In this document: one piece after another, positions 1,555-53,276 of the stretch
Layout: each line of letters begins with the position of its first letter
How positions within the stretch are numbered: the stretch's first letter is position 1
Source: an uncultured Bacteroidales bacterium
Lineage (GTDB): Bacteria > Bacteroidota > Bacteroidia > Bacteroidales > Muribaculaceae
Assembly (NCBI GenBank): GCA_902800715.1
Contig: CADCFN010000015.1
Span: 83,459 to 147,458, forward strand
Direction: 5' to 3'
Length of the DNA stretch: 64,000 nucleotides
Position numbers and translations under genes: made by a program
The notes under the pieces: model-generated
What the model saw: the letters and a program-made list of their open reading frames with translations, nothing else
Databases searched by the model: none
What the model was told of the DNA's origin: nothing

Positions 1555-1562
1555 ATTATTTT
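1555..1562. repeat. Left target-site duplication of the IS1595-family transposon
   Basis: ATTATTTT lies immediately outside the left terminal repeat and is repeated exactly at 4136-4143 outside the right terminal repeat. Eight bases is the target duplication length known for the IS1595 family. Confidence 0.92.
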
Positions 1563-1586
1563 GGCAATGATATAGCTGTTGGCCCA
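1563..1586 (-). repeat. Left terminal inverted repeat of the transposon
   Basis: 24 bases, the exact reverse complement of 4112-4135. A third identical copy is at 34875-34898. Confidence 0.93.
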
Positions 1587-1588
1587 CT

Positions 1589-1622
1589 AAAACCCGCGAA
1601 TCTTTATCGGTTTGCGGGTTTT
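1589..1622. terminator. Hairpin just inside the left transposon end
   Basis: Arms AAAACCCGC and GCGGGTTTT (9 bp), followed by T-rich sequence on both strands. It probably stops transcription entering the element from the 5'-nucleotidase side. Confidence 0.75.
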
Positions 1623-1708
1623 CTAGCATTCTTTAGCTAAAAATATTCCGGATTTACTGGAAAAGTCGCGAACTTTGCATTACTTTAATACAAAAACGGT
1701 ATATTGGT

Positions 1709-2683
1709 ATGATTAACTTCGCAAAGTTCAATAACATTATCTCACTCACTTCTTACTTCAACACTAAGGAGAAGTGCCAACAGGCCATCATCGAGTCACG
1801 TTGGGATGACGGTGACGTGGTTTGTCCCTACTGTGGCGCACATCATTGCTCCAAGCGTGGTGACGGACGTTTCCGTTGCAACCACTGCCTCAAGAACTTC
1901 TCCTGTCTTGTGGGTACAATCTTCGAGAATACTAAGATGCCGCTTATCAAGTGGTTCGTGGCCATGTACCTTATCAGCAGCCATAAGAAAGGCATTTCCT
2001 CTCATCAGTTGAGCCGCGACCTTGATATCACCCAAGCAAGCGCATGGTATATGTTGCAGAAAATCCGCTTGCTTTATCCTCAGAGCGATGCAGAAGCCTT
2101 TGAGGGCACTGTGGAGTGCGATGAGGTGTACATCGGTGGCAAGGAGAAGTGGAAGCACAAATCCATGAGAACGCCCCATACCCAAGGCCGTTCAACCAAG
2201 ACCAAGACCCCCGTATTCGGTATGATGGAGCGAACCTACATCGAGGATGAAAAGGGTGACGTAATTCCCATGAGTTACGTTCACGCGTTCGTTGTTGAAA
2301 AGACCGACAAGGCCACATTGCAGCCCATTATCAAGCAGTTCGTTGCTGAGGGTTCAACAGTCATTACCGATGAGTTGAACGCCTACAATGGTCTGACCAA
2401 GTTGGGTTACGGTCACGCCATCGTTAATCACGGTGCTGAACAGTACGCGATTGGGGACATATTTACCAACACCATTGAGGGTTTTTGGAGTCATTTCCGT
2501 AGGATGATTACGGGTTGCTACCATGACGTTAGTGACGAGCACCTTCAGCAATACATTGACGAGGCCGTGTATCGTTGGAATACACGAAAAATGGACGAAT
2601 CAGAGAGATTCGCCCACATGTTCTCGATGTCAATCGGCATGATTGTCCGTTGGAGTGAGGTTAGGTTGTGCCAAGCGGCTTAA
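1709..2683 (+). CDS. IS1595-family transposase
   Basis: The 324-residue protein has an N-terminal zinc ribbon (CPYC then CNHC, about residues 40-60), a helix-turn-helix-like region (SSHQLSRDLDITQASAWYML), and an ISXO2-like DDE catalytic domain. Candidate catalytic residues are D138 (VECDEVYIGG), D221 (VITDELNAY) and E257 (NTIEGFWSHF). It catalyses cut-and-paste movement of the surrounding element, whose terminal repeats and 8-bp target duplication are both intact. Length is normal and no frameshift is seen, so it is likely active. Upstream lies a 120-base region with the left end and a terminator hairpin. Confidence 0.95.
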   Translation: MINFAKFNNIISLTSYFNTKEKCQQAIIESRWDDGDVVCPYCGAHHCSKRGDGRFRCNHCLKNFSCLVGTIFENTKMPLIKWFVAMYLISSHKKGISSHQLSRDLDITQASAWYMLQKIRLLYPQSDAEAFEGTVECDEVYIGGKEKWKHKSMRTPHTQGRSTKTKTPVFGMMERTYIEDEKGDVIPMSYVHAFVVEKTDKATLQPIIKQFVAEGSTVITDELNAYNGLTKLGYGHAIVNHGAEQYAIGDIFTNTIEGFWSHFRRMITGCYHDVSDEHLQQYIDEAVYRWNTRKMDESERFAHMFSMSIGMIVRWSEVRLCQAA

Positions 2684-2708
2684 TACTACTTGGTGATGGC
2701 AGTAATAG

Positions 2709-3476
2709 TTAATAATCATAACCTAAATATTGGTCAGTAGGTTCACGATGTGTGTCTAACGCCATATGGAGGCTTTCTAACGCATGTGCTGCCTGATAAA
2801 GATGTGTCGCACATTCTCCAAGCGCACCCATATTATCCCATTTTGTGTCACATGTCTGAAGATAATTCTTCAAACACAAGCTAGCGTCGTTAATCTTGTC
2901 AAATATTTCTTGTACTTTTTTTCGATGCCCATTCCACTCATCATTGCCTAAATCTTTTTGTGTTTCTTTAAGACATCGTTTTACGGATTCCTTAATCACT
3001 CTATGTAAATCCGATTCTGTAAGTCTAATTGTCTTCTTCATATTATATCTTGTTTTATGTTGTTTATTTTCGTTTGTTTCTGAGTTATGTAGTTTATAAT
3101 GTGCTGACACTACTCGTTCAATTGCGTTAAATACATCTTCATCCAACGATGTTTCGTATTCATTGGCATCAATCTGAATATCGTTGAAATCAAAGTATAT
3201 CGTCTGTCCGTCAGGATATACCAAAGCAATGACGAATTTCCGTGAATCTTGAATGCTTTTAGACCAATCGCATATAATCAACACCCTTACATTTAAAGCC
3301 ATGTACTTTTCGAACTTGTTATCACCAACTGTTCTATTAACACACCACACATCAGGTATAGGAAAAGCCATCGCATCATCTAAGGTCTTGAACTCTCCAA
3401 TGCTGACATTGCCCTTTTCAAAAATCACATTCGGACACCATTTATATTTATTGTTCTCGTTTTGGCTGTTATCCAT
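2709..3476 (-). CDS. Transposon passenger protein with a C-terminal helical module, function unknown
   Basis: The 255-residue protein was not recognised as a whole. Residues 1-140 are acidic and beta-rich, with no motif I know. From about residue 146 the sequence MKKTIRLTESDLHRVIKESV begins a lysine-rich helical module; similar starts are common on small phage-related proteins of Bacteroidales (from memory). An internal start at that methionine could give a separate ~110-residue protein. The gene is inside the transposon, divergent from the other passenger with a 47-base gap, and its stop is 25 bases from the transposase stop. It could be cargo for defence, addiction or phage interaction, but nothing in the sequence decides this. 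Confidence 0.7.
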   Translation of the reverse strand: MDNSQNENNKYKWCPNVIFEKGNVSIGEFKTLDDAMAFPIPDVWCVNRTVGDNKFEKYMALNVRVLIICDWSKSIQDSRKFVIALVYPDGQTIYFDFNDIQIDANEYETSLDEDVFNAIERVVSAHYKLHNSETNENKQHKTRYNMKKTIRLTESDLHRVIKESVKRCLKETQKDLGNDEWNGHRKKVQEIFDKINDASLCLKNYLQTCDTKWDNMGALGECATHLYQAAHALESLHMALDTHREPTDQYLGYDY

Positions 3477-3484
3477 TATTTGCT

Positions 3485-3492
3485 TACTTTTG
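3485..3492 (+). promoter_or_regulatory. Candidate promoter of the second passenger gene
   Basis: TACTTTTG matches the Bacteroidetes -7 box TAnnTTTG. A TTTG at 3461-3464 lies 20 bases upstream, as expected for the -33 box. The start codon at 3524 is 31 bases downstream. Confidence 0.7.
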
Positions 3493-3523
3493 CACTCTTA
3501 TCAATCATAAATATCGTCGAAAT

Positions 3524-4069
3524 ATGAAATTTTTAGAGTTTGTTTATGGTCAATTATTGGATTTGGCAGAAATATACTATTGTTTTGGAAATAATGATGC
3601 TTGCCTTATTATAGATAACGATGGGGTAAAGAAGTTGGCGATAAAGATGCCGTCACTGATTGGAGCATATGCATTATATCAATGGGATTGGAATAAGGTT
3701 GATAAAGGTGAAATCGGTCAAATCGTAACGGACAAGTCTAAAGAAGCGTGTGATTTTTTCCGAAGTGTGTTTGGCTTATTGCAAACGAACTCAGCGAACC
3801 CAATTTATACGGAAGCACAAAGCCTAATTAAAAAATCAGCATCAAAGGATGATTATCATAATGAACAATTCTTTGATACTATAGGTGATATAAGTCTCAT
3901 TCATTTGGAGAAGAATAAGAATATGAATATATGGAAGGTTATTGTTGATGACGTGTTATCCTTCACTCTTAAAAATGAAAACGCGGCAAAACGCTTATCT
4001 GCGCTAATTAAGCAAGATATGAAAAATTATGCTAAGGTAAGATGGGGTGGCTTGGCCCAATGGCTATAG
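3524..4069 (+). CDS. Transposon passenger protein of unknown function
   Basis: The 181-residue soluble protein has no signal peptide or membrane segment and was not recognised. It is rich in aromatic and acidic residues, with segments such as IYYCFGNNDACLIID and LIGAYALYQWDW. The gene is AT-rich compared with the core genes to the right, consistent with transfer. It diverges from the other passenger (gap 47 bases) and has its own promoter at 3485-3492. Its last codons (ending AQWL) run into 4052-4068, which resembles an internal copy of the transposon end, so the C-terminus may have been shaped by a past rearrangement. Confidence 0.7.
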   Translation: MKFLEFVYGQLLDLAEIYYCFGNNDACLIIDNDGVKKLAIKMPSLIGAYALYQWDWNKVDKGEIGQIVTDKSKEACDFFRSVFGLLQTNSANPIYTEAQSLIKKSASKDDYHNEQFFDTIGDISLIHLEKNKNMNIWKVIVDDVLSFTLKNENAAKRLSALIKQDMKNYAKVRWGGLAQWL

Positions 4070-4076
4070 AAAGTAA

Positions 4077-4100
4077 AATGCAGCCATATCTGACTGCATT
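4077..4100. terminator. Hairpin just inside the right transposon end
   Basis: Arms AATGCAG and CTGCATT (7 bp) lie after the stop of the second passenger gene. An outer pair TTGGCCCAA (4052-4060) and TTGGGCCAA (4111-4119) can enclose it. The U-tract is weak, so termination is plausible but not certain. Confidence 0.45.
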
Positions 4101-4111
4101 CATAAGATATT

Positions 4112-4135
4112 TGGGCCAACAGCTATATCATTGCC
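4112..4135 (+). repeat. Right terminal inverted repeat of the transposon
   Basis: 24 bases, exact reverse complement of 1563-1586, followed directly by the target duplication ATTATTTT at 4136-4143. Confidence 0.93.
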
Positions 4136-4197
4136 ATTATTTTTTTAGAGGAGATGAAAAAAGCAAACCTCGGTCATAAAATGGCAGAGGTTTGTTG

Positions 4198-5939: not shown

Positions 5940-7649
5940 ATGGCCAAATTCTATGTTATAAGTCCAAATGTGGAAAATGATAATAGTAAAACAGAAGATT
6001 ATCTGAAAGAAATGTTCAATAACCATTCAATTCTAATGGGTTATGACACAGATAGTCGCTGGGGGCAAATGTTTGCTGATATGCAATCAGGAGATTATGT
6101 TATATGTGCCCAAGGCGCAAATTGGCAAAAAAAATGTTTTTTTGCTGGAATGGTATGTGGTGAGAGACAAGGTGAATGGCCTTTTTCGCGAAACCTTAAA
6201 GGTTTTGTGGATCTTCGTAATGAAAAGGTCCCATTTTCAACAAGCAATACATATGGAGCTTCTAATCAAACTACTGCGATATATGAATTAAAAAAGGATA
6301 ATGAAGCTGATTTAGTTATTATTAGCCTTATAGAGAACAAAGTAAACAATACATTAAAGAAAGAAATGATTCTTAATTGCTCTAATTTATTGGTGGCAAA
6401 TAAAAATATGATTCTTACCGGTGCCCCTGGCACCGGTAAGACGTACTTAGCTAAGGAGATTGCAATGAATATGGGGTGTGACGAAGATTTTATAGGCTTT
6501 GTTCAATTTCACCCATCTTATGACTATACAGATTTTGTTGAGGGTTTGAGGCCGATAAAAAAGGGAAACACAGTAGGGTTTGAAAGAAAAGATGGTGTAT
6601 TTAAGGAATTTTGTAAGAAAGCTCTTACTCTTTCAGCGGGGTCATTATTTGATAAAGCTTACAATAATCTTATTCAATCTATTGAATCTGGTAAATTGAC
6701 AACCATTCAGCTAAAGACTAAGCCTTCTGCTAAATTGGATGTAAGGGGGACCGATAGTATAGGGTGGTATTCTGAAACAGAAAAGGGGAACAAGTCAAGT
6801 AATGTGGTATCAAGAGATCGCCTAAAAAATCTTTATGAAGTTTATAATACACTTGAAAAGTTAGATAATCTGACTAATATCAATGAAGGCATTCAATCTG
6901 TCATAGGTGGTTGTGATTCCACTTATTATTGGGGAGTACTTCATCATATACTAAAACAACCGTTTGTTTTCATTATAGATGAAATTAACCGTGGCGAAAT
7001 TTCAAAAATCTTTGGTGAGTTATTTTATTCGATAGACCCTGGATATCGAGGAGGTAAAGGTAAAGTTGATACTCAATATCAAAACTTGATTCCTAAAGAA
7101 GGAGATATTGATTTTGAAGCAAACAATGCAGATGCCTTTAGATACGGTTTTTACGTTCCTGAAAATGTCTATATCATAGGAACTATGAATGATATTGATA
7201 GAAGTGTAGAAAGTATGGATTTTGCTATGCGAAGAAGATTTGCTTGGAAGGAAATGTCTGCAAAATCTAGACAGTCTATGCTTGATGAAGAAGATGCTTG
7301 GGGTGAGAATGGCAAACCAGAGCAAGTGATTATTGATAAAATTAAGGTTAAAATGGATAACTTGAACGCTTGCATCATTGATGAGTATAAAAAAGAATTA
7401 TCTACCAAGGATGAGATTGGACTTACCAAGGCTTACCAAATAGGTGCAGCGTATTTTCTCAAATATGGTCTTTATGAAAGCAACCAATTTGAAAATTTAT
7501 GGAATAACCATCTTGAAGGGTTACTTCGTGAATACTTAAGAGGTACTACAGACATTGAAGATAAGATACAAAAGTTAAAAGCAGCCTATGATGATGAGAG
7601 TAAGAACCAAAACGAGAAACCAAGAAACCAAGAAATTGATAAAGACTGA
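5940..7649 (+). CDS. mcrB: McrB-type GTP-dependent restriction ATPase
   Basis: The 569-residue protein is the motor and DNA-recognition subunit of an McrBC-type modification-dependent restriction system. Residues 1-120 form a PUA/EVE-like recognition domain (DTDSRWGQMFADMQSGDYVICA). The AAA+ domain has Walker A GAPGTGKT at 161-168, FVQFHPSYDYTDFVEGLRP as in McrB proteins, FIIDEINRGEISKIFGEL as Walker B, and MNDIDRS at 416-422, a variant of the McrB GTPase signature MNTADRS. It overlaps mcrC. In the family, McrB-GTP hexamers translocate and activate the McrC nuclease on methylated invading DNA. The ligand of this N-terminal domain is unknown. Confidence 0.93.
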   Translation: MAKFYVISPNVENDNSKTEDYLKEMFNNHSILMGYDTDSRWGQMFADMQSGDYVICAQGANWQKKCFFAGMVCGERQGEWPFSRNLKGFVDLRNEKVPFSTSNTYGASNQTTAIYELKKDNEADLVIISLIENKVNNTLKKEMILNCSNLLVANKNMILTGAPGTGKTYLAKEIAMNMGCDEDFIGFVQFHPSYDYTDFVEGLRPIKKGNTVGFERKDGVFKEFCKKALTLSAGSLFDKAYNNLIQSIESGKLTTIQLKTKPSAKLDVRGTDSIGWYSETEKGNKSSNVVSRDRLKNLYEVYNTLEKLDNLTNINEGIQSVIGGCDSTYYWGVLHHILKQPFVFIIDEINRGEISKIFGELFYSIDPGYRGGKGKVDTQYQNLIPKEGDIDFEANNADAFRYGFYVPENVYIIGTMNDIDRSVESMDFAMRRRFAWKEMSAKSRQSMLDEEDAWGENGKPEQVIIDKIKVKMDNLNACIIDEYKKELSTKDEIGLTKAYQIGAAYFLKYGLYESNQFENLWNNHLEGLLREYLRGTTDIEDKIQKLKAAYDDESKNQNEKPRNQEIDKD

Positions 7650-8985
7650 AGACTATAATAAAGGAGAATCTGTCAACCCTGAAGATCTTCATGACCTAAA
7701 GGCCATTGCAGATGTGGGTATCTCTAATATTACATTAGAGGATTATCCCAATTTGCTTGTTTTCCCAGACTCCTTTGATAAGTATGATACGAATTTTGGG
7801 AAAAAGGTTATATGTAGCATTTCTGACGATGGTAAGATGCTATACACAAATAGCATTGTAGGCTTTGTTGGTAGGAATAATACCCACTTATCCATTCAAT
7901 CAAGGTTTGCCAATGATGATAAAGAAGACTTCTTTTTGCACTATATGCTCCAAAAGGTCGCAAAGATTAACTTATTTAGTCTTCAACATATGATGGATAA
8001 AGATAGTGTTTTTGATTTTCTTATATATCTCTTCCCTCTATATTTAAAGAAAGCGATCAACCAAGGTATATTTAAGAAATACGTTACCCATAAGTATAAC
8101 GATGCCAATGTTAGGGGTGTGATTGATGTCAACAGGCACATAAGGTATAATGAACCCTTCAATGGCAAAGTAGCTTATAACACCAGAGAATATGACTATG
8201 ATAATGAAGTCACACAGCTTATCAGACATACTATCGAATTCATCCGAAAGCACAAGCGAAGCGATATTCTTAAAATAGATACTGATACCAACCAAGCTGT
8301 AGCTCAAATCGTAAGTGCAACCCCATCATTTATGCCCAATCAAGTTCATCTGGTTATTAATAAGAATCTGCGACCAATAGCCCATCCTTATTATAGTGAG
8401 TATACACCACTTCAAAGACTGTGCTTGCAAATCCTTAGGCACGATGAAATAAAGTATGGCCAAAAGAAAGATGAAATATATGGTGTACTGATTGATGCTG
8501 CATGGTTATGGGAAGAATACTTAGCGATATTGTTGCACAGCCAATACATTCATTGTGTAAAGAACAAACGGCCAAAGTTTTTTCTTTTTAAACCCAAGAA
8601 TCAGCAGATAATACCGGACTTCCTTTCTTTGGATAAAAGAATTGTCGCAGATGCAAAGTACATACGATTGAATGAAAAACATTGGTTCGAGGAGGATAGT
8701 GCAAATGCTACTGCCATTTACTATAAGACCATCACTTATATGTATAGGTTTTGCTCAAAAAAAGGATATCTGTTATATCCACATCCTGAAGATAAGCCAA
8801 TGACGCCAACCACCACACTTGAAATCTTATCTGAGCAAGAAGGAATAAATGGCGGAACATTAATCAAGTTGGGATTGATAATACCTCAAGGTTGCACTGA
8901 CTTTCCACAATTTGTAGATTCAATTCGGAAAAATGAGGACAATTTTAAAATGAATCTATTTAATAATGCTACAGTTCATCTCTAA
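7588..8985 (+). CDS. mcrC: McrC-type restriction endonuclease subunit
   Basis: The 465-residue protein is the nuclease partner of McrB. The N-terminal finger-like part contacts McrB in the family. The C-terminal PD-(D/E)XK site is visible as IPDF (P343, D344), then D355 and K357 in VADAKY. The ATG at 7588 overlaps mcrB by 62 bases. No ATG lies in the next 80 codons, but a TTG at 7636 would give a 14-base overlap and may be the real start. The overlap implies translational coupling, which fits a fixed McrB:McrC ratio. The third gene overlaps its end by 20 bases. Confidence 0.92.
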   Translation: MMMRVRTKTRNQETKKLIKTEDYNKGESVNPEDLHDLKAIADVGISNITLEDYPNLLVFPDSFDKYDTNFGKKVICSISDDGKMLYTNSIVGFVGRNNTHLSIQSRFANDDKEDFFLHYMLQKVAKINLFSLQHMMDKDSVFDFLIYLFPLYLKKAINQGIFKKYVTHKYNDANVRGVIDVNRHIRYNEPFNGKVAYNTREYDYDNEVTQLIRHTIEFIRKHKRSDILKIDTDTNQAVAQIVSATPSFMPNQVHLVINKNLRPIAHPYYSEYTPLQRLCLQILRHDEIKYGQKKDEIYGVLIDAAWLWEEYLAILLHSQYIHCVKNKRPKFFLFKPKNQQIIPDFLSLDKRIVADAKYIRLNEKHWFEEDSANATAIYYKTITYMYRFCSKKGYLLYPHPEDKPMTPTTTLEILSEQEGINGGTLIKLGLIIPQGCTDFPQFVDSIRKNEDNFKMNLFNNATVHL

Positions 8986-9478
8986 TAGTGACCATTATGG
9001 GGAGGTGCTGGCGCGGGTAGCAAATGTAAAGCGCAGCCTGTGGATCGGTACGGCTGACATCAAAGACTTGCATGTCAAGGTGGGTGATACGACCAAGCCG
9101 TTTCTGGCGGTTATCGCTCTGCTGATTAGACGTGGTGTTGAGGTAAGGCTGATTCATGCTAAGGAGCCGGGGCCGAACTTCAGGGAGGACTTTGACAGGT
9201 ATCCCGTGCTGTATGACCGGTTGGAGCGGGTGCTGTGTCCCAGGGTGCATTTCAAGATGCTGGTGTTTGACTGTGAGGAGGTCTATATCGGTAGCGCCAA
9301 CCTCACGGGGGCAGGCATCGGCATGAAGAGTAGCGATAAGCGCAACTTCGAAGCCGGCATCCTTACCGATGATCCTCAAATCGTCGAGCAGGCCATGAAG
9401 CAGTTCGACAACGTCTGGATGGGCAAGCACTGCAAAACCTGCAAGCGCAAGGACTTCTGCCCAGATCCCATTGTATAA
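8966..9478 (+). CDS. Single-HKD phospholipase-D-family nuclease linked to McrBC
   Basis: The 170-residue protein has one complete HKD motif: H95, K97 and D102 in HFKMLVFD, followed by EVYIGSANLTGAG. Single-HKD members such as Nuc and BfiI dimerise to build one active site and usually cleave DNA. The C-terminus has CKTCKRKDFC, a small cysteine cluster that may bind zinc. It starts inside the last 20 bases of mcrC, so it belongs to the same operon. An extra nuclease gives the operon two different hydrolytic chemistries. Membership in a defence operon is seen; its exact role is inferred. Its GC content is higher than mcrBC, suggesting separate origin. Confidence 0.85.
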   Translation: MLQFISNSDHYGEVLARVANVKRSLWIGTADIKDLHVKVGDTTKPFLAVIALLIRRGVEVRLIHAKEPGPNFREDFDRYPVLYDRLERVLCPRVHFKMLVFDCEEVYIGSANLTGAGIGMKSSDKRNFEAGILTDDPQIVEQAMKQFDNVWMGKHCKTCKRKDFCPDPIV

Positions 9479-9512
9479 GTTTTTTCGAGAAAAATCCATC
9501 ATAAGGACGCGC

Positions 9513-9533
9513 CTCTGCCACGTTTTGGCAGAG
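9513..9533 (+). terminator. Terminator after the McrBC operon, fused to the next promoter
   Basis: Arms CTCTGCCA and TGGCAGAG, followed by GTGTGTCTTTTTC. The T-run merges with a promoter-like TTTTCTTTGCATCGTGATTA that precedes the next gene. A similar module is at 10484-10530. Confidence 0.7.
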
Positions 9534-9586
9534 TGTGTCTTTTTCTTTGCATCGTGATTATTATTAACTATTTAAAAAACAAGATT

Positions 9587-10123
9587 ATGGCAAAGACAAT
9601 TAATGATGAATTCATGCTGCAGGTAGCCACAGAGCAGGCTTGGCAAAAACTCGCCAAAGACTATGCATGGACCGAAGATCTTCTTGAGAAGTACGCAGAC
9701 AAGTTGGACTGGAAAAAGATTTCATCGAACGGGGCCATCCGTTGGACGGTGCCGATGCTCAGGAAGTTCTCCAGCAAACTTGACTGGAAAGAGTTATCGG
9801 AAAACATCAATGATGAATGGTTTACCGAGGCCCATCTAGAAGCCTTTAAGGACAAGTGGGACTGGTCGTACTTGATTTCACTGTACAAATTGTCAGATCG
9901 TTTGATCGATAAGTACACTGATTACATTGACTGGGCTGCTTTCATAGGAGCAGAAGGATCCTACCGCATCTGTGGCCTCCCCCGTGACGACAGTTTCGAC
10001 GCGATGTCATTCTATGAAAAGTACAAGGAACACATCACAATGTCGGCGTTGCATCAGTCGGACTTATGGGACAAAATCGTGGAACAACGCTGCAAGCAAC
10101 TTCTTGCCGAGATTTTATCTTAG
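9587..10123 (+). CDS. Helical repeat protein with DW-type repeats, function unknown
   Basis: The 178-residue protein (starting MAKTINDEF) is built from repeats of about 25 residues around a core like LLEKYADKLDWKKIS. Variants are LRKFSSKLDWKELS, LEAFKDKWDWSYLI and LIDKYTDYIDWAAF. Such tandem helical units usually form protein-binding solenoids. I chose the ATG at 9587 because an upstream ATG at 9533 would lie in the terminator-promoter region and encode a hydrophobic stretch unlike the rest. No enzyme motif is visible. It is the first of three genes preceded by similar promoter modules, ahead of a small protein and the FtsZ paralogue. Confidence 0.75.
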   Translation: MAKTINDEFMLQVATEQAWQKLAKDYAWTEDLLEKYADKLDWKKISSNGAIRWTVPMLRKFSSKLDWKELSENINDEWFTEAHLEAFKDKWDWSYLISLYKLSDRLIDKYTDYIDWAAFIGAEGSYRICGLPRDDSFDAMSFYEKYKEHITMSALHQSDLWDKIVEQRCKQLLAEILS

Positions 10124-10230
10124 CTCCATCAAGAAATGACTTTTCTGCGAGCATCTGCCGCAATATGACTTAGGTATGCCCTATATTTGACGCGATTATC
10201 AATTTTGTTTCACATTTAATCGCTAGCATT

Positions 10231-10452
10231 ATGAGCAAAGTTTTTAGAATTACGCCGAAGCGCACCAGGCGCGTCAATGGGCAAGTAATCACGCCCGAAA
10301 TGGTGATTACGGTAACAACCCGCCAGCACTGTCTCAATCCGTTCTACAACGGAGCTGTCGAGGTCCAGGAGCAGTACATGCGTATGTACCAGTTCGACTA
10401 CAAGAAGGCCTGCATGAGCGCCGCCGACTTCACCTACCAGGCACTCGACTAA
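10231..10452 (+). CDS. Small conserved-looking protein, function unknown
   Basis: A basic 73-residue protein beginning MSKVFRITPKRTRRVNGQVI, with a beta-rich first half (EMVITVTTR) and a helical second half ending in DFTYQALD. No signal peptide, membrane segment or known motif. It lies between the repeat protein and the FtsZ paralogue and is preceded by TATATTTGACGCGATTATC, a -7-like box at about 10182-10189. The dense spacing suggests a functional set, but no role can be assigned. Codon use resembles its neighbours, so it is probably real despite its size. Confidence 0.6.
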   Translation: MSKVFRITPKRTRRVNGQVITPEMVITVTTRQHCLNPFYNGAVEVQEQYMRMYQFDYKKACMSAADFTYQALD

Positions 10453-11905: not shown

Positions 11906-14770
11906 TTATATGCTACTTAACGAGTCAATAAGAGTAGTAGCAACCTCAGGATGGCGGAAAGTGATGATATTGTCATCTTGCTTGTAGAAGCCAAGGGGGT
12001 TAACGTTGCCGTACCATAGACGGGAGCGGTCGATGATGGTGGCTGAAAATGATAGGCTCACTTTAATGATGATTCTTATTCCGTACTTTTCCAAGTGTTC
12101 GGTATACTCGTTCTTCTCTCTGGTCGCTACTGCAATCTTGATGCCTTTGGGAATGAGGTCAGCAAGTCGTGTGGCGACTAATGAGCGGTGGCTAAACTTT
12201 ACTTTGGGACAAATGATTATGATGGATCTTTTGGCAGAACCAAGAGATGAAATGTAACGAGTTATGAAGTTGGAGCCATTGAAAATCTGGTTTTCTGGTT
12301 CTTGAATGTCGGCGAATAGGCCATCTGGCATGAGCGAGTATCCGATGGATGCATAGCCTTTAAGTCTGCGTCGATACATAGCTTCACATACAGGAATATT
12401 AAAGTCGATATAGTCATAAATGCGCACCTCTTGTTTCCCGACGTGATCGCGATGCAGGCGACCTGCATATTGCGCGATGATACCTTTCCATGAAACTGGC
12501 AGAGCGAGAAACAATGTGTCAAGCCTGGGACGGTCAAATCCCTCGCCGATGTACTTTCCTGTGGCTATGATGACGAGAGGGTCATTGTCTGAGAGTTGAT
12601 TTAATCGTTCCATTTTCAACCTCTTCTCTTTGGTGCTCTCTGAACCTATCAGTACGATGACATTTGCGCAATGATGTTTCAGGAGATTAGCAAGTGAATC
12701 AACATGTGTTGTTAGGCTAGAAAGTACTAATGGAGTTCGCCCTTCTTTCAATGCTGTGCAAACGTCATCAACAATGAGGCGGTTACGGTATTCATCCTCT
12801 GCGAGTTGGTGAATGATTTGCATGTAGGGCAAATTCTTGTCAATAACATCGTGGTAATGTGTGAAACGGGGTACAAGCAATCTGCTAAAAGACTGCATTT
12901 GCATTTGATGCTTGGCGTCAGCTGTGTATCTAATCGGGCCGCATTGCATGAATATGATGGGCTGATGTCCATCTTTCCTTATGGGAGTCGCGGTCAGGCC
13001 ATAGACCCGATGTGCATTTGTTTCTTTCAGAACGTGCTCAAAGTTTACCGCAGACACATGATGACACTCATCGACAATCACCAAGCCGTATTCCTTGACA
13101 AACGGTTTTACCTCTCCATTGGTAATGCAAGACTGGATGAGGGCGATATCAATGAAGCCATGCAATGAGTTGCCAGCAGAACTGAGTGTGCCAATAGGGG
13201 AAGATTTCTTTGGTCTGCCTCGTTTGGGTTTGGTTTCTTTAGGTATGTATTTGATTGACAGAAACTTGCCTAATTCCTTTTTCCATTGTTCAAGGAGCGC
13301 TTTAGTATGCGTTAGAATTAGCGTATTAACTCCGTGTCTTGCAATCAGTCCTATTGCGGCAACAGTCTTACCAAAAGCCGTTGTAGCCGACATCACGCCA
13401 TTTGTATTCTCGCTTAATAGTGAAACTGCTTTTGCTTGGTCGCTGCGCAACTCTTCAGTGAAAGTGACATGAATGGGTTTCCCATGATTGGTTTTGTCGA
13501 TGATTTCATAGTTCACCTCATTGTCTTCTAGGAATTGGATGACAGCATCTTCACAACCACGAGGTAATGCCAGGTAGTCATCAATGATTTCAGCGCAAGA
13601 GATGATGCGAGGAATGTTATAGGTGGTTAGACGCATAGCCTGTCGGCTATAAAATTCTGGATTCCTGAATGAGGCGATACGCTTGAAGTGATTGATAATC
13701 TTTGCCGATAATGCCCCAATAGGAAAGTATAGCATGTTCGCTTTTACGATGGTCAGTTTGGCTGCAAAATCTCTTTTATCAATCGTTGGTGCCACAGGAG
13801 TTTCCCAAGGCTTGTTCTCGCTAGTTGTGGCAAGTGCACCAAGGGGCTGGGCACCAGCTTTTGACTGAAGCAAGATGTCAACATCTGCCTTAGCCAGTTT
13901 CTTTATTTTGAGCAAGTATTCCCATTGGTCGGGATAGGGCTCAAAATGCTCGTTCACAAATACGCTGTTTCCTTGTTTTCTTGCCTGGCCTTGTAACGGC
14001 AGTGCCACGAGGTTACCTAAGCCACCTTGTGGCAGGTAATCCTGATTTGGAAAGAAACGGTCATATGATTTGAACGAAATACAACCGTCACGATTTGTGG
14101 CTTCAGTTAGAATAGCATACCCTAACCGTCGTGCTTTGGCAGCCGAAATCGGAGCATCAAAAAATATCCAGACATGTGCCCCATTTCCTGAACGAGAACG
14201 TTCAATAGAGTAGGGGATGTTCCAACTTTTGCAGACGTTGACAAATGTCAATACATCACCTTTATAGCCATGCTCGCAGTTCTTGTCATCAAAATCGGCG
14301 CAAAGCAGATGGCAGGTATTGTCATCCTTGATGACATACAACCCCATCACATCGCGGCAATTGGGCGCTTTCCCTTCAAGATGACGATAGATGTCATTGT
14401 CAGTGAGCTTGGAGAATTGCCGGTTAGGGCATTCACTGCATTTGTATAGTCGCTTGTTGCACAGTTGCGGATTCCATTCGTTTTCACAGGCTGGTTGATA
14501 TCCACTTTTGCCATTTGAACAGTTCTGCCATCGCCGGGCAAATACATCTTCCCGTCCACGGAACAAACTACGAAACAAGGCAACCTTTTCATCCAACGAC
14601 AATCGGGTCATTGCTGGAGGAGGCAGGGACTTTTCGTGGCCTGACCTTTGTGGCTCATACTGTATCAGTCGCTGACGAAGTACCGAAATCACATCCTCAA
14701 GTTGCTTTATTCGCACTAGAAGAGCATCCCGTTCGCGCTTGAGTTCCTGATATGATATCGAATCGTTCAT
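11906..14770 (-). CDS. TOTE-type primase-SF2 helicase with a C-terminal PLD-like domain
   Basis: The 954-residue protein has four parts. A coiled coil occupies residues ~8-45. An archaeo-eukaryotic-primase domain of the TOTE conflict-system type carries acidic residues D159 and D161 (ADFDD) and H199 in SGNGAHVW. An SF2 helicase core has K468 in AFGKT, DECH at 567-570 and LTATP, and a RAD3/UvsW-like second lobe has GEGFDRP and QYAGRLHR. A C-terminal PLD-like domain ends in RLWYGNVNPLGF, but where an HxK is expected it reads FSA, so the nuclease site looks dead. TOTE systems are proposed conflict or defence systems. The next gene is 23 bases upstream on the same strand, so the two are probably co-transcribed. 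Confidence 0.88.
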   Translation of the reverse strand: MNDSISYQELKRERDALLVRIKQLEDVISVLRQRLIQYEPQRSGHEKSLPPPAMTRLSLDEKVALFRSLFRGREDVFARRWQNCSNGKSGYQPACENEWNPQLCNKRLYKCSECPNRQFSKLTDNDIYRHLEGKAPNCRDVMGLYVIKDDNTCHLLCADFDDKNCEHGYKGDVLTFVNVCKSWNIPYSIERSRSGNGAHVWIFFDAPISAAKARRLGYAILTEATNRDGCISFKSYDRFFPNQDYLPQGGLGNLVALPLQGQARKQGNSVFVNEHFEPYPDQWEYLLKIKKLAKADVDILLQSKAGAQPLGALATTSENKPWETPVAPTIDKRDFAAKLTIVKANMLYFPIGALSAKIINHFKRIASFRNPEFYSRQAMRLTTYNIPRIISCAEIIDDYLALPRGCEDAVIQFLEDNEVNYEIIDKTNHGKPIHVTFTEELRSDQAKAVSLLSENTNGVMSATTAFGKTVAAIGLIARHGVNTLILTHTKALLEQWKKELGKFLSIKYIPKETKPKRGRPKKSSPIGTLSSAGNSLHGFIDIALIQSCITNGEVKPFVKEYGLVIVDECHHVSAVNFEHVLKETNAHRVYGLTATPIRKDGHQPIIFMQCGPIRYTADAKHQMQMQSFSRLLVPRFTHYHDVIDKNLPYMQIIHQLAEDEYRNRLIVDDVCTALKEGRTPLVLSSLTTHVDSLANLLKHHCANVIVLIGSESTKEKRLKMERLNQLSDNDPLVIIATGKYIGEGFDRPRLDTLFLALPVSWKGIIAQYAGRLHRDHVGKQEVRIYDYIDFNIPVCEAMYRRRLKGYASIGYSLMPDGLFADIQEPENQIFNGSNFITRYISSLGSAKRSIIIICPKVKFSHRSLVATRLADLIPKGIKIAVATREKNEYTEHLEKYGIRIIIKVSLSFSATIIDRSRLWYGNVNPLGFYKQDDNIITFRHPEVATTLIDSLSSI

Positions 14771-34841: not shown

Positions 34842-34898
34842 ATATAGCAGTTGACTTAAAACCCTGCGGGGTTTTGGGCCAACAGCTATATCATTGCC
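34842..34898. mobile_element. Miniature element or remnant with one intact IS1595-type end
   Basis: 34875-34898 is identical to the 24-base right end of the transposon at 4112-4135. About 10 bases to its left is a hairpin AAAACCC-TGC-GGGGTTTT, and before it ATATAGCAGTTGAC resembles a degenerate left end. No target duplication is visible. Confidence 0.6.
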
Positions 34899-48700: not shown

Positions 48701-49450
48701 GCACTCTCTTCCCTCAATTAATTGAGTCAATTAGACATTCTAATATACTGACTTTCAGTCACCTGATCTACAATAGTAGAAATTAATTGAGTCAATTAGA
48801 CGCAAGTGATGGAAGCAGGGAAACTCACCATCTACAATAGTAGAAATTAATTGAGTCAATTAGACCTGGATGCCGTTGCCCACACCACCACAAAATCTAC
48901 AATAGTAGAAATTAATTGAGTCAATTAGACCCTATGCTGCCAACAATGGATACTATGAATCTACAATAGTAGAAATTAATTGAGTCAATTAGACTACACC
49001 TACGGCTTGATTAAGGCTGGCGATCTACAATAGTAGAAATTAATTGAGTCAATTAGACGAAACCGACAACTGGCTGCCTATCGTAATATCTACAATAGTA
49101 GAAATTAATTGAGTCAATTAGACCCCAATTCTCCCGAGGGTATCATCCTATTGTTTATCTACAATAGTAGAAATTAATTGAGTCAATTAGACTCGTAGAT
49201 GCCGCAGCCGATTGCTGCTAATCTACAATAGTAGAAATTAATTGAGTCAATTAGACTGACTTTTTTGCGACAATAATTCGGTAAATCTACAATAGTAGAA
49301 ATTAATTGAGTCAATTAGACGATTCCAGATACCAGTAAGGGTTATCTTTATCTACAATAGTAGAAATTAATTGAGTCAATTAGACGAAAACGAATGAAGA
49401 AAAATGGCACAAAAATCTACAATAGTAGAAATTAATTGAGTCAATTAGAC
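48701..49450 (-). CRISPR. Type V-A CRISPR array, 11 perfect repeats plus one degenerate
   Basis: The 36-bp repeat, read on the transcribed minus strand, begins GTCTAATTGACTCAATTA and ends AATTTCTACTATTGTAGAT, the Cas12a handle. Perfect repeats start at 48766, 48830, 48895, 48959, 49023, 49088, 49157, 49221, 49285, 49350 and 49415. The repeat at 48701-48736 has lost the handle half and marks the leader-distal end. The eleven spacers, from 48737 upward, are 29, 28, 29, 28, 28, 29, 33, 28, 28, 29 and 29 bases. All spacers differ from each other. I recognised no spacer target in the window. Confidence 0.99.
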
Positions 49451-49462
49451 CCCTTATGGGCG

Positions 49463-49470
49463 CAAAAATA
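49463..49470 (-). promoter_or_regulatory. Candidate CRISPR leader promoter
   Basis: TATTTTTG on the minus strand matches TAnnTTTG and ends 13 bases before the first repeat, so the transcript would start roughly 5-8 bases before it. The AT-rich leader between here and the cas12a stop is about 125 bases. Confidence 0.55.
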
Positions 49471-49574: not shown

Positions 49575-52500
49575 TCAATCGTTAAGATAAGGCTTGGACT
49601 GAGCAAAACTGAGCCACTCTTTATTTGAAATTGCCATATTGACCTTTTCATCGACGTGCGCTGCTTGAATCTGTCGAGCGACCCACAGGCCTTTTCGAGC
49701 GATGTTGTAAGCGCCATTGGCATCGGCATTCTCGGGCAATTCTTTGCCGCAGGTGCGGCTGTCAAAGAATTTGCCGTTCTCGTCGGCGACGGGCGAAATC
49801 ATATAATCCACCTCGGTTCCCGTGATGTTGTTGCGCATCTGCAGGGTTAATGCCAGCAAGTGGGTAAGTTTGTCAAAGAACTCTTTTTGGCTTCGTTCGG
49901 CTATCGCTTGCTTCAGGTTCCCTTGTGGCTCGACGCCATAGGTCGCAAACAGTGCATTGAACTCGTCAGTCAGGTTGACCTCGCGACTGTCCCAAGATGA
50001 ATTTTTCTCAGCATTGCGGAAGGTCTCGACCCTCGTGCCATGGGTACAAAGCGTCCACTCTGTTCGTGTGCCTTCGGCCTTGGTGGTAAAGTCGTTGTAG
50101 TCCATCGTGAACTCATACCATCCTTTATCTTGATTGTAACGGATAGACTTGAATTTGCAGAAGAAACTCCTTGACTTATCCACGCTCTCATAACGCGGAT
50201 GCAGCAGGTCGACAAATCCGGTGACAGGGTCAATCTTGCTCGTGTTCCAGGCGGGGATGTAGAACAGGAAACCGTTTTGCCGTCCCATGTCACGGAAACT
50301 GGTGAACTTGTTGGTCAACTGGTAGGCATGCAGCAGGCCGCCCGGTTGGTCAGCATCAATTTTCTTGTCGATGAGCAGATTGAGTTTGTCAATCAACGCC
50401 TTTTCAAACTGTTGATAGACGGAACTCTCCACCTTTTGACGTCCGCGCTTGAATCCCATGTTCAAGTCCTCAAGCACGACAACAGCATGGTATTTGACCA
50501 TGAGCGAGACAATCTTGTGGATGACCTGTGACAGGTAGCCCTGCTTTAACTCCTTGATGCCCTCGATGGTGTTCCAACTCTGGCGCTCACGCTGTCGCTC
50601 GTCGTCGCGCTTGTCAAGAAGGCTGCGATAATTGGTCTTGTAAGTATTGCCTTGATACTCGTTCACAATCTCGTTGAGCGAGAACTGCTCCTTGATGCAC
50701 CCCTTGGAGTCGATGACAGTGACATAAAGCAGGTGGCGCTCACCGCGGTCAATGCCGATAAAGTGCAGGTCATCATGGTCATGGATGTATTGGTTGACCA
50801 ATGGATTAATGCTACCGCTCCCAGTTGCTTTAAAGTTGATGGTGATAGGCACATGGAACTGGAACTTATCCATTGTGAATCGCTTGTCCTTGATGATATC
50901 GTAATCAAATGTGCTTTCTTTCTTTGTGGTCTCAGGATTTTTGTTCTTGATAGCCTGATTGGCAGGATGGGTGGGTCTGTCGTAATCAAGGCTCTTTTTG
51001 CGATAGAACACTTCGGCCTGGCCATTAAGTTTATATACCACATTGGCAAGATTGCGCTCGTCGAATACCATCTTCCAGTAAAGCGTGTGCAGGTTGGGGG
51101 TGCCTTTGCTGTAAGGCGAGAAATCCTTATTGTAGATTTGGAACAGGAACAGTTTTCCCTCTTCTACCATTTTGTCAATGTAACTGACAGGGATTTGCTT
51201 GTAGGAAATCTTGTAACCCATCTGCTCCACCTCGCGGTAGAATCCACTCAAGTCCTCGTAGGTGTCGGTGGGGGAGAAATGGAAGTCAAATTTGCTCCAA
51301 TCCTCATGCTTCGCTATGGATGCCTTGAAGAAGTCAATCAACTCATGGCAGTCCTTAAGGCTGAAGTTGTCACCTTTCTTGTGGGTCCCTTTCTCGTAGT
51401 GCTCAAGCAGTTCGGGAGAAGGCTTGAATTCCTCGATGCGTGATTTGGAAAAGAACACCTTGGGCAACATTTTGTTGGCACCAGGTAATAGTTTGTATTC
51501 CATTTTTTCGAATGTGTCCTCGTCATGACCTGCTTGAGGTGCATCAACAAAAATTCTGTTGAATTGCTTGTTCATGATAGCCAGGAAGTATTTCCCGTCC
51601 TTGCGCATGATGACGCCTGTGTTGTCCCGCTCTTTGTTCAAGTCCCAACCATCAAGCAGGGTCGAATTCTGGAAATTCAGTTTAAATTTCTCGATAGAGT
51701 AGGGCTTGCGTGTCATGCGGTTGCGCACCTTGTTGTAGAGTGGAGTGATGTGGTCAAGTTCTTCCCACAGCACTGCCAGTTCTCCGTAGAAGCGCTCGTC
51801 CTTGTCGGGCTCGTCACCATTGCCCCGCAAGGGCTTGACAAAGCGCTGCAAGGCCTTGACGGCATCGAGCAATGCTTTTAAACGGGCAACATTCTCTTTG
51901 TCCTGAGCGAGATTGCGGTCCTCAGGATAGTCATTCTCGATGAGTGATTGGGCATCGGTGTAGGCGTTCTGGATTTGCAGGAACAGGTTTACGGTTTGCT
52001 CCTCGCCGTTGTCCGAAGCGCCCAGTGTGGCAAAATGGTCACAGATGTCCTTTTCCTGGATGCAGTGATTCATGTAGCCGATACTGAAACTGTTTTCTCG
52101 CTTGATGAGTTTGCTGATGCGTTCCTCGTAGTTGTCGGCCTTCTCATTTCGCTTGAGCGGACAATTGCGCTTGACATCCTCGGCAATGGCTTTCTTGATA
52201 ACCGACCAATCCTTAAACATCGCTTGGGAGATATCGGTTAGCGACAGGTCATTGGGAATGTAGATGCCATCCAGGTTGTAACTTGACAAGTTCGTCAACA
52301 GTTCTCTCAGTGGGTCAAACACGTGGTCATTGAGGGAATGGTAACATTCCTTCACCGCTGTAAGCATGTCCTTGTCGCTCTCGAACTCTTCGGGAAGCCA
52401 GGACACCGCCTCGCGGTCACTCAATATCTGCTTGAACAGTGGTTTGAGTTTGGGCAGACGTGTGTCGCGCGATGGCTGCTGCTGGTTGTACAGATTGACA

Positions 52501-53276
52501 TATTCGTTGATGCCCTGTATCTTCTTGCCAGACTCTTCAACCGTTCTACCGCCAATCACAGCGTTATAGGCCTCGATTTGCGACTGGGTGAGCAATTCGG
52601 TGTAATAGTCCAGTTTGAACAAGTCACCGATTTCCCTCACGTTGAGATACTCTGCCATCTCTTGATAAAGTTGAGGGAAATGCTCGGCAACAGGCGATGC
52701 TGCAATTTTCTCAAACGTCGCCATGTTGTCGATGAACTTAGGCAGGTTTTCGTGAATCAACCGATAGGCAATTGCTGTCGATTGAGCCTCGGCAGAATAC
52801 ATATTCCTGCGATTCTCGTGAAATCCTGTGAAATAGGTCGTGAAATCACGGAATTCATCTATCAGTGCCTGCTCTTCGGGCTCGATAACGCTCAAGATGT
52901 CTTCACGGATAAGTTCTTTCTTGTCGATGCGCTTGTAACGGCTGTCCTTAGTAAGAGCGTCGGCAATCAACTTGCGCAGTTTGTCCTGAATCTTTTCTAA
53001 GGCTTTCTTGTCGGCATCGCTTTTTTGCGATTTGGAATAAAGTTCATGTAGCGAGTCCAGTTCATCAAGTGGCAATTTCAGGGTGCCCAGCACGCTATCA
53101 ATAAACTTCTTATGGTATCGGTCAATGATTTTCTTGACCAGTTTGTAACTTTCGGCACGGTGCTCGTCTTGAGCAATAAGGTCTGTTCTCTCAAGTATCG
53201 CTTTAGTGCGCTTATCGGGAATCAGTTCAAAACGCAACGTCTTTGAAACAGGATATAAATTAGTGAAATGGTCCAT
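49575..53276 (-). CDS. cas12a: CRISPR-associated endonuclease Cas12a (Cpf1)
   Basis: The 1233-residue effector starts FTNLYPVSKTLRFELIP. RuvC acids are D843 (GIDRGER), E936 (VVLEDLNMGF) and D1185 (NADANGAYN). The Nuc-domain arginine is R1148 (LQMRNN). The bridge-helix region and WED domain are recognisable. The crRNA-processing segment includes FYRKKSLD, THPANQAI, KKESTFDYDIIKDKRFT and HVPITINF, so it should mature its own crRNAs. Length is typical. It makes staggered cuts next to a T-rich PAM in known relatives. The array lies 125 bases downstream in the same orientation. No cas1, cas2 or cas4 flank it. Neighbours are ordinary core genes. Confidence 0.99.
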   Translation of the reverse strand: MDHFTNLYPVSKTLRFELIPDKRTKAILERTDLIAQDEHRAESYKLVKKIIDRYHKKFIDSVLGTLKLPLDELDSLHELYSKSQKSDADKKALEKIQDKLRKLIADALTKDSRYKRIDKKELIREDILSVIEPEEQALIDEFRDFTTYFTGFHENRRNMYSAEAQSTAIAYRLIHENLPKFIDNMATFEKIAASPVAEHFPQLYQEMAEYLNVREIGDLFKLDYYTELLTQSQIEAYNAVIGGRTVEESGKKIQGINEYVNLYNQQQPSRDTRLPKLKPLFKQILSDREAVSWLPEEFESDKDMLTAVKECYHSLNDHVFDPLRELLTNLSSYNLDGIYIPNDLSLTDISQAMFKDWSVIKKAIAEDVKRNCPLKRNEKADNYEERISKLIKRENSFSIGYMNHCIQEKDICDHFATLGASDNGEEQTVNLFLQIQNAYTDAQSLIENDYPEDRNLAQDKENVARLKALLDAVKALQRFVKPLRGNGDEPDKDERFYGELAVLWEELDHITPLYNKVRNRMTRKPYSIEKFKLNFQNSTLLDGWDLNKERDNTGVIMRKDGKYFLAIMNKQFNRIFVDAPQAGHDEDTFEKMEYKLLPGANKMLPKVFFSKSRIEEFKPSPELLEHYEKGTHKKGDNFSLKDCHELIDFFKASIAKHEDWSKFDFHFSPTDTYEDLSGFYREVEQMGYKISYKQIPVSYIDKMVEEGKLFLFQIYNKDFSPYSKGTPNLHTLYWKMVFDERNLANVVYKLNGQAEVFYRKKSLDYDRPTHPANQAIKNKNPETTKKESTFDYDIIKDKRFTMDKFQFHVPITINFKATGSGSINPLVNQYIHDHDDLHFIGIDRGERHLLYVTVIDSKGCIKEQFSLNEIVNEYQGNTYKTNYRSLLDKRDDERQRERQSWNTIEGIKELKQGYLSQVIHKIVSLMVKYHAVVVLEDLNMGFKRGRQKVESSVYQQFEKALIDKLNLLIDKKIDADQPGGLLHAYQLTNKFTSFRDMGRQNGFLFYIPAWNTSKIDPVTGFVDLLHPRYESVDKSRSFFCKFKSIRYNQDKGWYEFTMDYNDFTTKAEGTRTEWTLCTHGTRVETFRNAEKNSSWDSREVNLTDEFNALFATYGVEPQGNLKQAIAERSQKEFFDKLTHLLALTLQMRNNITGTEVDYMISPVADENGKFFDSRTCGKELPENADANGAYNIARKGLWVARQIQAAHVDEKVNMAISNKEWLSFAQSKPYLND

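Follow-up and report, generated by a model that had tools for sequence, protein, structure and literature searches.

An intact cargo transposon at the locus

We analyzed a stretch of 64,000 nucleotides (the window) from an uncultured Bacteroidales bacterium of the Muribaculaceae (assembly GCA_902800715.1, contig CADCFN010000015.1, forward strand, positions 83,459 to 147,458), which holds an intact cargo transposon of the IS1595 family with two undescribed passenger genes, one of them bearing a 26-residue module (the tag) that occurs often in T4-like viral records but seldom in bacteria. The element occupies positions 1563–4135 and ends in 24-bp terminal inverted repeats, GGCAATGATATAGCTGTTGGCCCA on the left (1563–1586, + strand) and its reverse complement on the right (4112–4135, − strand), which are identical at 24/24 positions by direct reading as well as by repeat search and are flanked by exact copies of the 8-bp target-site duplication ATTATTTT (1555–1562 and 4136–4143, neither with a strand). 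It encodes a transposase of 324 amino acids (aa) at 1709–2683 (+), with a DDE domain and a zinc ribbon (PF12762, E = 1e−45; PF12760, E = 9e−8; NF033547, 5e−58, 196.4 bits at a cut-off of 75), and two further open reading frames (ORFs) of 255 aa (passenger 1 or P2, 2709–3476, −) and 181 aa (passenger 2 or P3, 3524–4069, +, divergent from P2). The DDE transposase type, the terminal inverted repeats and the 8-bp duplication are all found as in the IS1595 family, in which passenger genes occur, and the ends, duplication, transposase and ORF lengths given by an earlier note on this DNA were confirmed throughout. Chance can be excluded, since 51 distinct elements have matching ends together with an 8-bp duplication (see below) and since the 24-mer end is present, at ≤ 3 mismatches, at seven places of the same genome (both ends of the element included) vs. 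none for the 24-mer read backwards.

The P2 frame consists of an N-terminal domain (N-domain; aa 1–143, 3048–3476, −), a linker, the tag MKKTIRLTESDLHRVIKESVKRCLKE (aa 146–171, 2964–3041, −), which ends in L-K-E and is proposed below as a capsid-targeting sequence, and, beyond the proposed cleavage site, a C-terminal part (aa 172–255, 2712–2963, −). P3 is untagged, is the proposed partner of the P2-type N-domain, and has on its 5′ side a promoter-like TTTG-N20-TACTTTTG (3461–3492, +), so that the "own promoter" attributed to the pair is supported for the plus-strand gene. Sites of this type, which we take to be the Bacteroidota promoter consensus, were observed six times in the window vs. 0.74 expected.

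Neither passenger has a significant match in Pfam, NCBIfam, PHROGs or PADLOC, and the statement that they belong to no known family holds for these four collections; the best weak match, of PADLOC Csx28 to P3 (E = 0.0047), was not taken as significant. Likewise, no known defence or toxin-antitoxin family was matched in PADLOC, Pfam or NCBIfam, and no homology to the T4 internal proteins (IPI–III, Alt) was seen, as judged from the lack of any significant PHROG or Pfam match. The AlphaFold model of P2 has a mean predicted local distance difference test score (pLDDT) of 67.9, with 10-residue block means of 76–91 over aa 11–130 (one block of 52 excepted) and low values over the tag and beyond, where the C-terminal part is helical in a low-confidence model and unlike the matching part of its homologs in the viral contigs L155 and L314. 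Foldseek retrieved six uncharacterised or unnamed phage-library proteins from a viral library (probability 1.00, E 0.002–0.04) and no matches at E ≤ 0.001 in either that library or the PDB.

Related transposons and their exchangeable passenger pairs

Related transposases were found, in one or two copies each, in 21 of 198 genomes of the family (E ≤ 1e−40) and in 9 of 101 genomes of the genus (E ≤ 1e−90), the genome of the window being counted in both, and an alignment of 11 transposases was used to scan the GTDB genomes and IMG/VR, which gave at least 79 loci each. We examined 90 loci including that of the window (23 from whole genomes, 45/79 from GTDB and 22/79 viral), the element search taking in 67/158 of the GTDB and IMG/VR loci, and considered an element to be delimited when matching ends (≥ 16/24) were accompanied by an exact 8-bp duplication; the 51 distinct elements, that of the window included, were obtained in this way. 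The usual layout of the close elements is a transposase, one or more convergent minus-strand genes and a divergent plus-strand gene. The passengers had been thought fixed in their transposon, which is not the case: four elements (L068–L071) that share the 24-bp left end of the window's element and have transposases 95–97% identical to its own hold other cargo. As to transposition itself, the signs are the exact duplications and the presence of close copies in other genomes. One of these, L069, has an N-domain of the P2 family and a plus-strand gene 26% identical to P3 by alignment, a link that phmmer did not recover.

The transposase tree comprised 74 rows (19 viral, 55 bacterial) after removal of seven broken or short sequences and nine duplicates from the 90. 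Viral and bacterial labels need at least 14 changes on this tree vs. a mean of 17 after shuffling (14 to 23 of 500 shuffles were as low), and are therefore mixed but slightly clustered. Side observations on more distant IS1595 elements include L066 (G112:C31), which has perfect ends and two genes that by eye are methylase-like (538 aa) and specificity-like (344 aa), and L109 and L111, elements of 8.4 and 6.3 kb with proteins of ~1000 aa; a reading of the latter cargo as tape-measure and baseplate genes was dropped, as the sole Pfam match, to ABC-3C CTD1 in L111, stayed below the threshold.

Homologs of both passengers lie together in L155, on the viral contig IMGVR_UViG_3300028886_001624, inside a transposon with 24/24 ends and the duplication TTTCCTTA; the N-domain is 48% and the plus-strand gene 34% identical to those of the window, and the pair thus travels together, as had been suggested. 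The contrary result, the two genes at the same site away from the transposon, was not seen: each passenger was searched in the 198 family genomes and no such pair was found elsewhere, although the empty site was not searched for. Used as single queries, neither P2 nor P3 matched anything in viral contigs, while alignment scans gave three loci for P2 and one for P3. P2 homologs are now known from L155, L069, L314 and L315, and in the searches made P3 homologs were confined to places next to a P2 homolog (L155 and, with doubt, L069). The N-domain homolog of L314 lies in a region of phage head genes, among other tagged genes; a head maturation protease (phrog_207, 1e−43) is encoded ~1.9 kb away, no P3 homolog was seen next to the N-domain homolog, and the 6.4 kb examined of this 10.6-kb viral contig contain no transposase. 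In L315, also a viral contig, a P2-type N-domain is fused behind a DUF723-like domain (2614–3744). The matches of P3 to L012 (same genome) and L020 (G171), which resemble a phosphatase-type signalling protein and a TPR protein, were rejected by eye as spurious.

When passenger parts were compared by phmmer (E < 0.01), four N-domain families with 13 members were obtained, and for 9/13 the plus-strand gene belongs to the corresponding partner family (window and L155; L070 and L097; L071, L083 and L107; L092 and L166). The exceptions are L088, without a plus-strand gene, L090 and L106, the partners of which match no family, and L069, whose window-type N-domain goes with a plus-strand gene from a different family and, doubtfully, with a P3-like one. 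In L093 and L163 the partner is of the L092 family, while their N-domains stayed unlinked in this comparison. Viral contigs provide an example of every one of the four pair types, situated after a transposase: L155 and L166, both delimited, and L154 and L158. The part after the tag differs between homologs, and the partner families have no mutual relation detectable by hhalign.

A scan with 68 query parts from 25 tagged elements against 463 kb of phage and 310 kb of bacterial flanking sequence initially gave matches to phage ORFs for 15/68 queries and to bacterial-flank ORFs for 4/68. The matches L266_16/17 and L269_14/15 sit directly behind the transposases of L158 and L154 and were counted as in-element, and all four bacterial-flank matches lie inside the L072 element, which had not been masked. 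Outside elements, 7/68 queries match phage ORFs (L314_4, L315_5, L288_10, L278_24) vs. 0/68 for the bacterial flanks. In one of these records an untagged homolog (L278 16079–16957) of the tagged L162 passenger (9357–10277; ADP-ribosyltransferase-like by eye, no Pfam match) was noticed elsewhere in the same viral record. By its genes the window looks like bacterial chromosome, the six scanned including those for an SRP54-type GTPase, a radical SAM/TRAM protein, Cas12a and McrBC. In Prevotella sp. tf2-5, a record not labelled as a metagenome-assembled genome (MAG), the tagged element L092 lies among genes that look chromosomal by eye. The transposons and their passenger families are very probably common to T4-like phages and Bacteroidota.

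The 26-residue module and its likeness to capsid-targeting sequences

The module has the consensus xKxxIRLTESDLxxxxKESVxxVLxE and is found in the minus-strand passenger, sometimes in the plus-strand one. Among delimited elements it is present in 16/19 with a transposase identity of ≥ 64%, 8/18 with 50–64% and 1/13 with < 50%. The P2 copy (aa 146–171, G000:C15:86422–86499) was recovered by the profile at E = 3e−16. In L163 and L093 the fused copies have no Met at the tag, and real fusions therefore exist; elsewhere the tag starts a separate gene, and free-standing tagged proteins occur in L069, L074, L077 and L156. The P2 ORF could accordingly yield one protein, or a separate tagged protein of 110 aa from Met 146.

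Across 11 whole viral records (2.1 Mb) that hold such transposons, the profile gave 114 matches at E ≤ 0.1, copies inside transposons counted, 92 of them at E ≤ 0.001, with 33 in the 335-kb G287 and 20 in the 355-kb G291. Five bacterial genomes (~16.6 Mb), picked because they carry such elements, gave eight matches at the same threshold, seven of them beside an IS1595 transposase; the bar is somewhat higher for bacteria because E-values are per genome. Among the 198 family genomes, which were drawn evenly, the tag occurs at five places at E ≤ 0.001, four of them adjoining an IS1595 transposase (G000 and G141 and, going by the reading frames, G017:C1 and G169); at the fifth (L261, G017:C29) we observed two tandem genes at 705–2286, one tagged and the other with a tag-like start. 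Of nine named phages, LR756508 gave seven weak matches and immuto one, and tblastn of a tag peptide against named phages found no match.

In the viral stretches 47 tags were counted in 554 ORFs, 38 of the 47 in N-terminal position. The end of the motif was examined with a model of the first 20 positions only, blind to the last six residues, to avoid circularity. With this model a hydrophobic-x-E lies exactly at positions 24–26 in 39/42 phage tags, which are paralogs and therefore not independent, vs. 100/5611 other positions (1.8%) and 13/507 untagged ORFs; 24/28 of the passenger tags end in the same way. The T4 prohead protease gp21 has its cleavage site behind L/I-X-E, and a capsid-targeting sequence is a short propeptide at the N-terminus (10–19 residues in the T4 internal proteins) that directs proteins into the head (PMC9026906). 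A gp21-type protease (PF03420) scored above cut-off in 6/11 viral records and in 0/14 control genomes. The gp23-type capsid protein was tested in G288 and is recognisable by alignment in five further viral records, and all six have [LIM]-x-E-A near residue 60 (strictly L/I in five), where T4 gp23 has LTE-A. Going by the likeness in motif, in the usual place of the tag, in protease (6/11 records) and in the variety of tagged proteins, the module is likely to be a capsid-targeting sequence, by analogy with T4.

Interpretation and genomic neighbourhood

We are fairly inclined to regard the element as an IS1595-family cargo transposon that moves between T4-like phages and Bacteroidota with virion-addressed cassettes, and the distribution described above suggests that such elements do move between phages and bacteria. 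A transposon group resident in T4-like large phages and in Bacteroidota would acquire, swap and carry phage-type gene cassettes; while the phage grows, tagged protein would pass into the core of the prohead and be cleaved behind L-x-E by the gp21-type protease; it would then be enclosed together with the DNA and reach the next cell by injection. The copy in the window would have transposed from phage DNA that had been introduced into an ancestral cell of this bacterium by injection. We infer that passenger 1 is or contains an internal virion protein and that passenger 2 would be its cognate partner, whether as an immunity protein, an inhibitor or a chaperone; the idea of an injected effector (P2) with a partner (P3) is put forward tentatively, as one possibility among several. 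With chances that we judge just short of even, these elements could form a transposon class with virion-addressed cargo, in which a standard capsid-targeting module stands before or inside exchangeable effector domains, cognate partner genes go with it and the proteins are delivered with DNA that may itself transpose.

Several observations weigh against the transposon carrying virion-addressed cassettes between phages and bacteria. No protease match was obtained in 5/11 viral records (G283–G286 and G292, which may be incomplete), among them G284, which holds the P2/P3-type pair; phage-type genes are nevertheless present in G284 (SbcC-like and helicase) and in G283 (tail sheath, DnaB-like helicase and SbcC-like). 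The tag model is built from the tags of the elements themselves and the 39/42 are not independent, 4/28 element tags lack the hydrophobic-x-E end, and 7/9 named phages, including T4, phiKZ and Lak-A1, are without a tag match. The tag is internal in P2 and many relatives, whereas the T4 capsid-targeting sequence is N-terminal, and therefore either P2 makes two products or the analogy is incomplete; packaging and cleavage are themselves argued by analogy. P3 bears no tag, and its AlphaFold model (pLDDT 55) is too poor for a fold search. No element ends were found for L154 and L158, the viral copies with cognate pairs, and the tag place in G017:C29 has no transposase within the 2.5 kb examined. 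As to movement, viral and bacterial labels are slightly more clustered on the tree than by chance, many "bacterial" contigs come from MAGs and may be phage, and movement from host to phage is equally possible.

The earlier note had expected such passengers to provide defence, addiction or host benefit; the evidence points rather to phage-type genes, with the tag accumulating in T4-like viral records, and leaves host defence a small place. In that case the cassette would be directed against phages through the capsid, a chromosomal tagged protein entering the proheads of an infecting T4-like phage and impairing either head assembly or the infection that follows, with passenger 2 shielding the cell that makes it. 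The intact state of the element in a chromosome with a promoter-like signal, the co-occurrence of N-domain and partner families (9/13) and the defence-like cargo of distant IS1595 elements (L066 by eye, L111 by its sub-threshold match) are in keeping with this, but pairs of this kind also follow transposases on viral contigs (L154, L155, L158, L166), for which sabotaging themselves would carry a high cost, PADLOC gave no significant match and only 9/101 genus genomes carry related transposases at E ≤ 1e−90, and we hold such a cassette to be unlikely. An ordinary toxin-antitoxin pair stabilising the transposon, with an incidental tag, would explain two small divergent genes of mostly paired families; it seems very improbable given that no toxin or antitoxin family was matched, that the part after the tag varies between homologs and that tagged phage genes surround one P2 homolog, next to which no P3 homolog was seen.

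The module might also be some other short shared helix, serving dimerisation, the binding of another phage structure, localisation or turnover. Its internal position in many passengers would suit such a role, and AlphaFold puts most of the P2 tag in a helix (aa 154–176, low confidence), yet the fixed hydrophobic-x-E end, the mostly N-terminal location in phages, the gp21-type protease in 6/11 records and the matching motif in the capsid proteins speak for capsid targeting, and this alternative is, in our view, not very likely.

Compared with known IS1595 elements, with which the present ones share the DDE transposase domain, zinc ribbon, inverted ends and 8-bp duplication, the group differs in having a common phage-type module in changing passengers, across large viral contigs and bacterial genomes. 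The T4 targeting sequence and internal proteins (IPI–III, Alt) offer the same arrangement of a short, mostly N-terminal module on unrelated proteins with an L/I-X-E-like end (PMC9026906), whereas the module described here differs in sequence, is longer at 26 residues, reaches up to 33 matches per record, is sometimes internal and is transposon-borne. In the giant phages SPN3US and phiKZ many head proteins are cleaved behind a short motif with a final Glu (S/A-X-E in phiKZ; PMC5694885, PMC9026906); most propeptides of SPN3US are much longer than the module, and phiKZ has no tag match. Phage polyvalent proteins are multi-domain proteins believed to be injected with the DNA (PMC7824862), while no common domain was detected in the passengers here. 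No publication on the module or on IS1595 elements with such cargo was found among open-licence PubMed Central papers.

If the interpretation as virion-addressed cargo is correct, the tag would provide a sequence label for listing the head protein contents of uncultured giant phages from DNA alone and would indicate many candidate injected proteins, so that the question of what giant phages inject at infection becomes testable. It would also show a path along which transposons and the cargo genes of phages cross between giant phages and gut bacteria; which hosts these phages have is deduced here from the shared elements.

Elsewhere in the window, ~2 kb from the transposon, an AAA_5 protein and a McrBC-domain protein form a type IV restriction-like pair (5940–8985, +), and a 954-aa protein with AEP-TOTE primase and helicase domains (11906–14770, −) is of the TOTE conflict-system type. 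A CRISPR array of 12 repeats (48716–49464) accompanies a Cas12a (Cpf1) gene with five Pfam domains (49575–53276, −); its spacers had no match at ≤ 6 mismatches in the loci gathered. Transposon-like ends are present at window position 34875–34898 and in L014 (5325–5793) and L015 (4938–5094), where they pair with degenerate opposite ends (469 and 157 bp) around no transposase; they are probably similar to miniature inverted-repeat transposable elements. Besides its single copy of the window transposase, the genome holds a second IS1595 element (L018, 3303–4991), with a transposase 64% identical, its own ends and duplication, and a 168-aa passenger. This passenger begins with MKDIRTFITES, as does that of L056, a start that presumably resembles the T4 targeting sequence.

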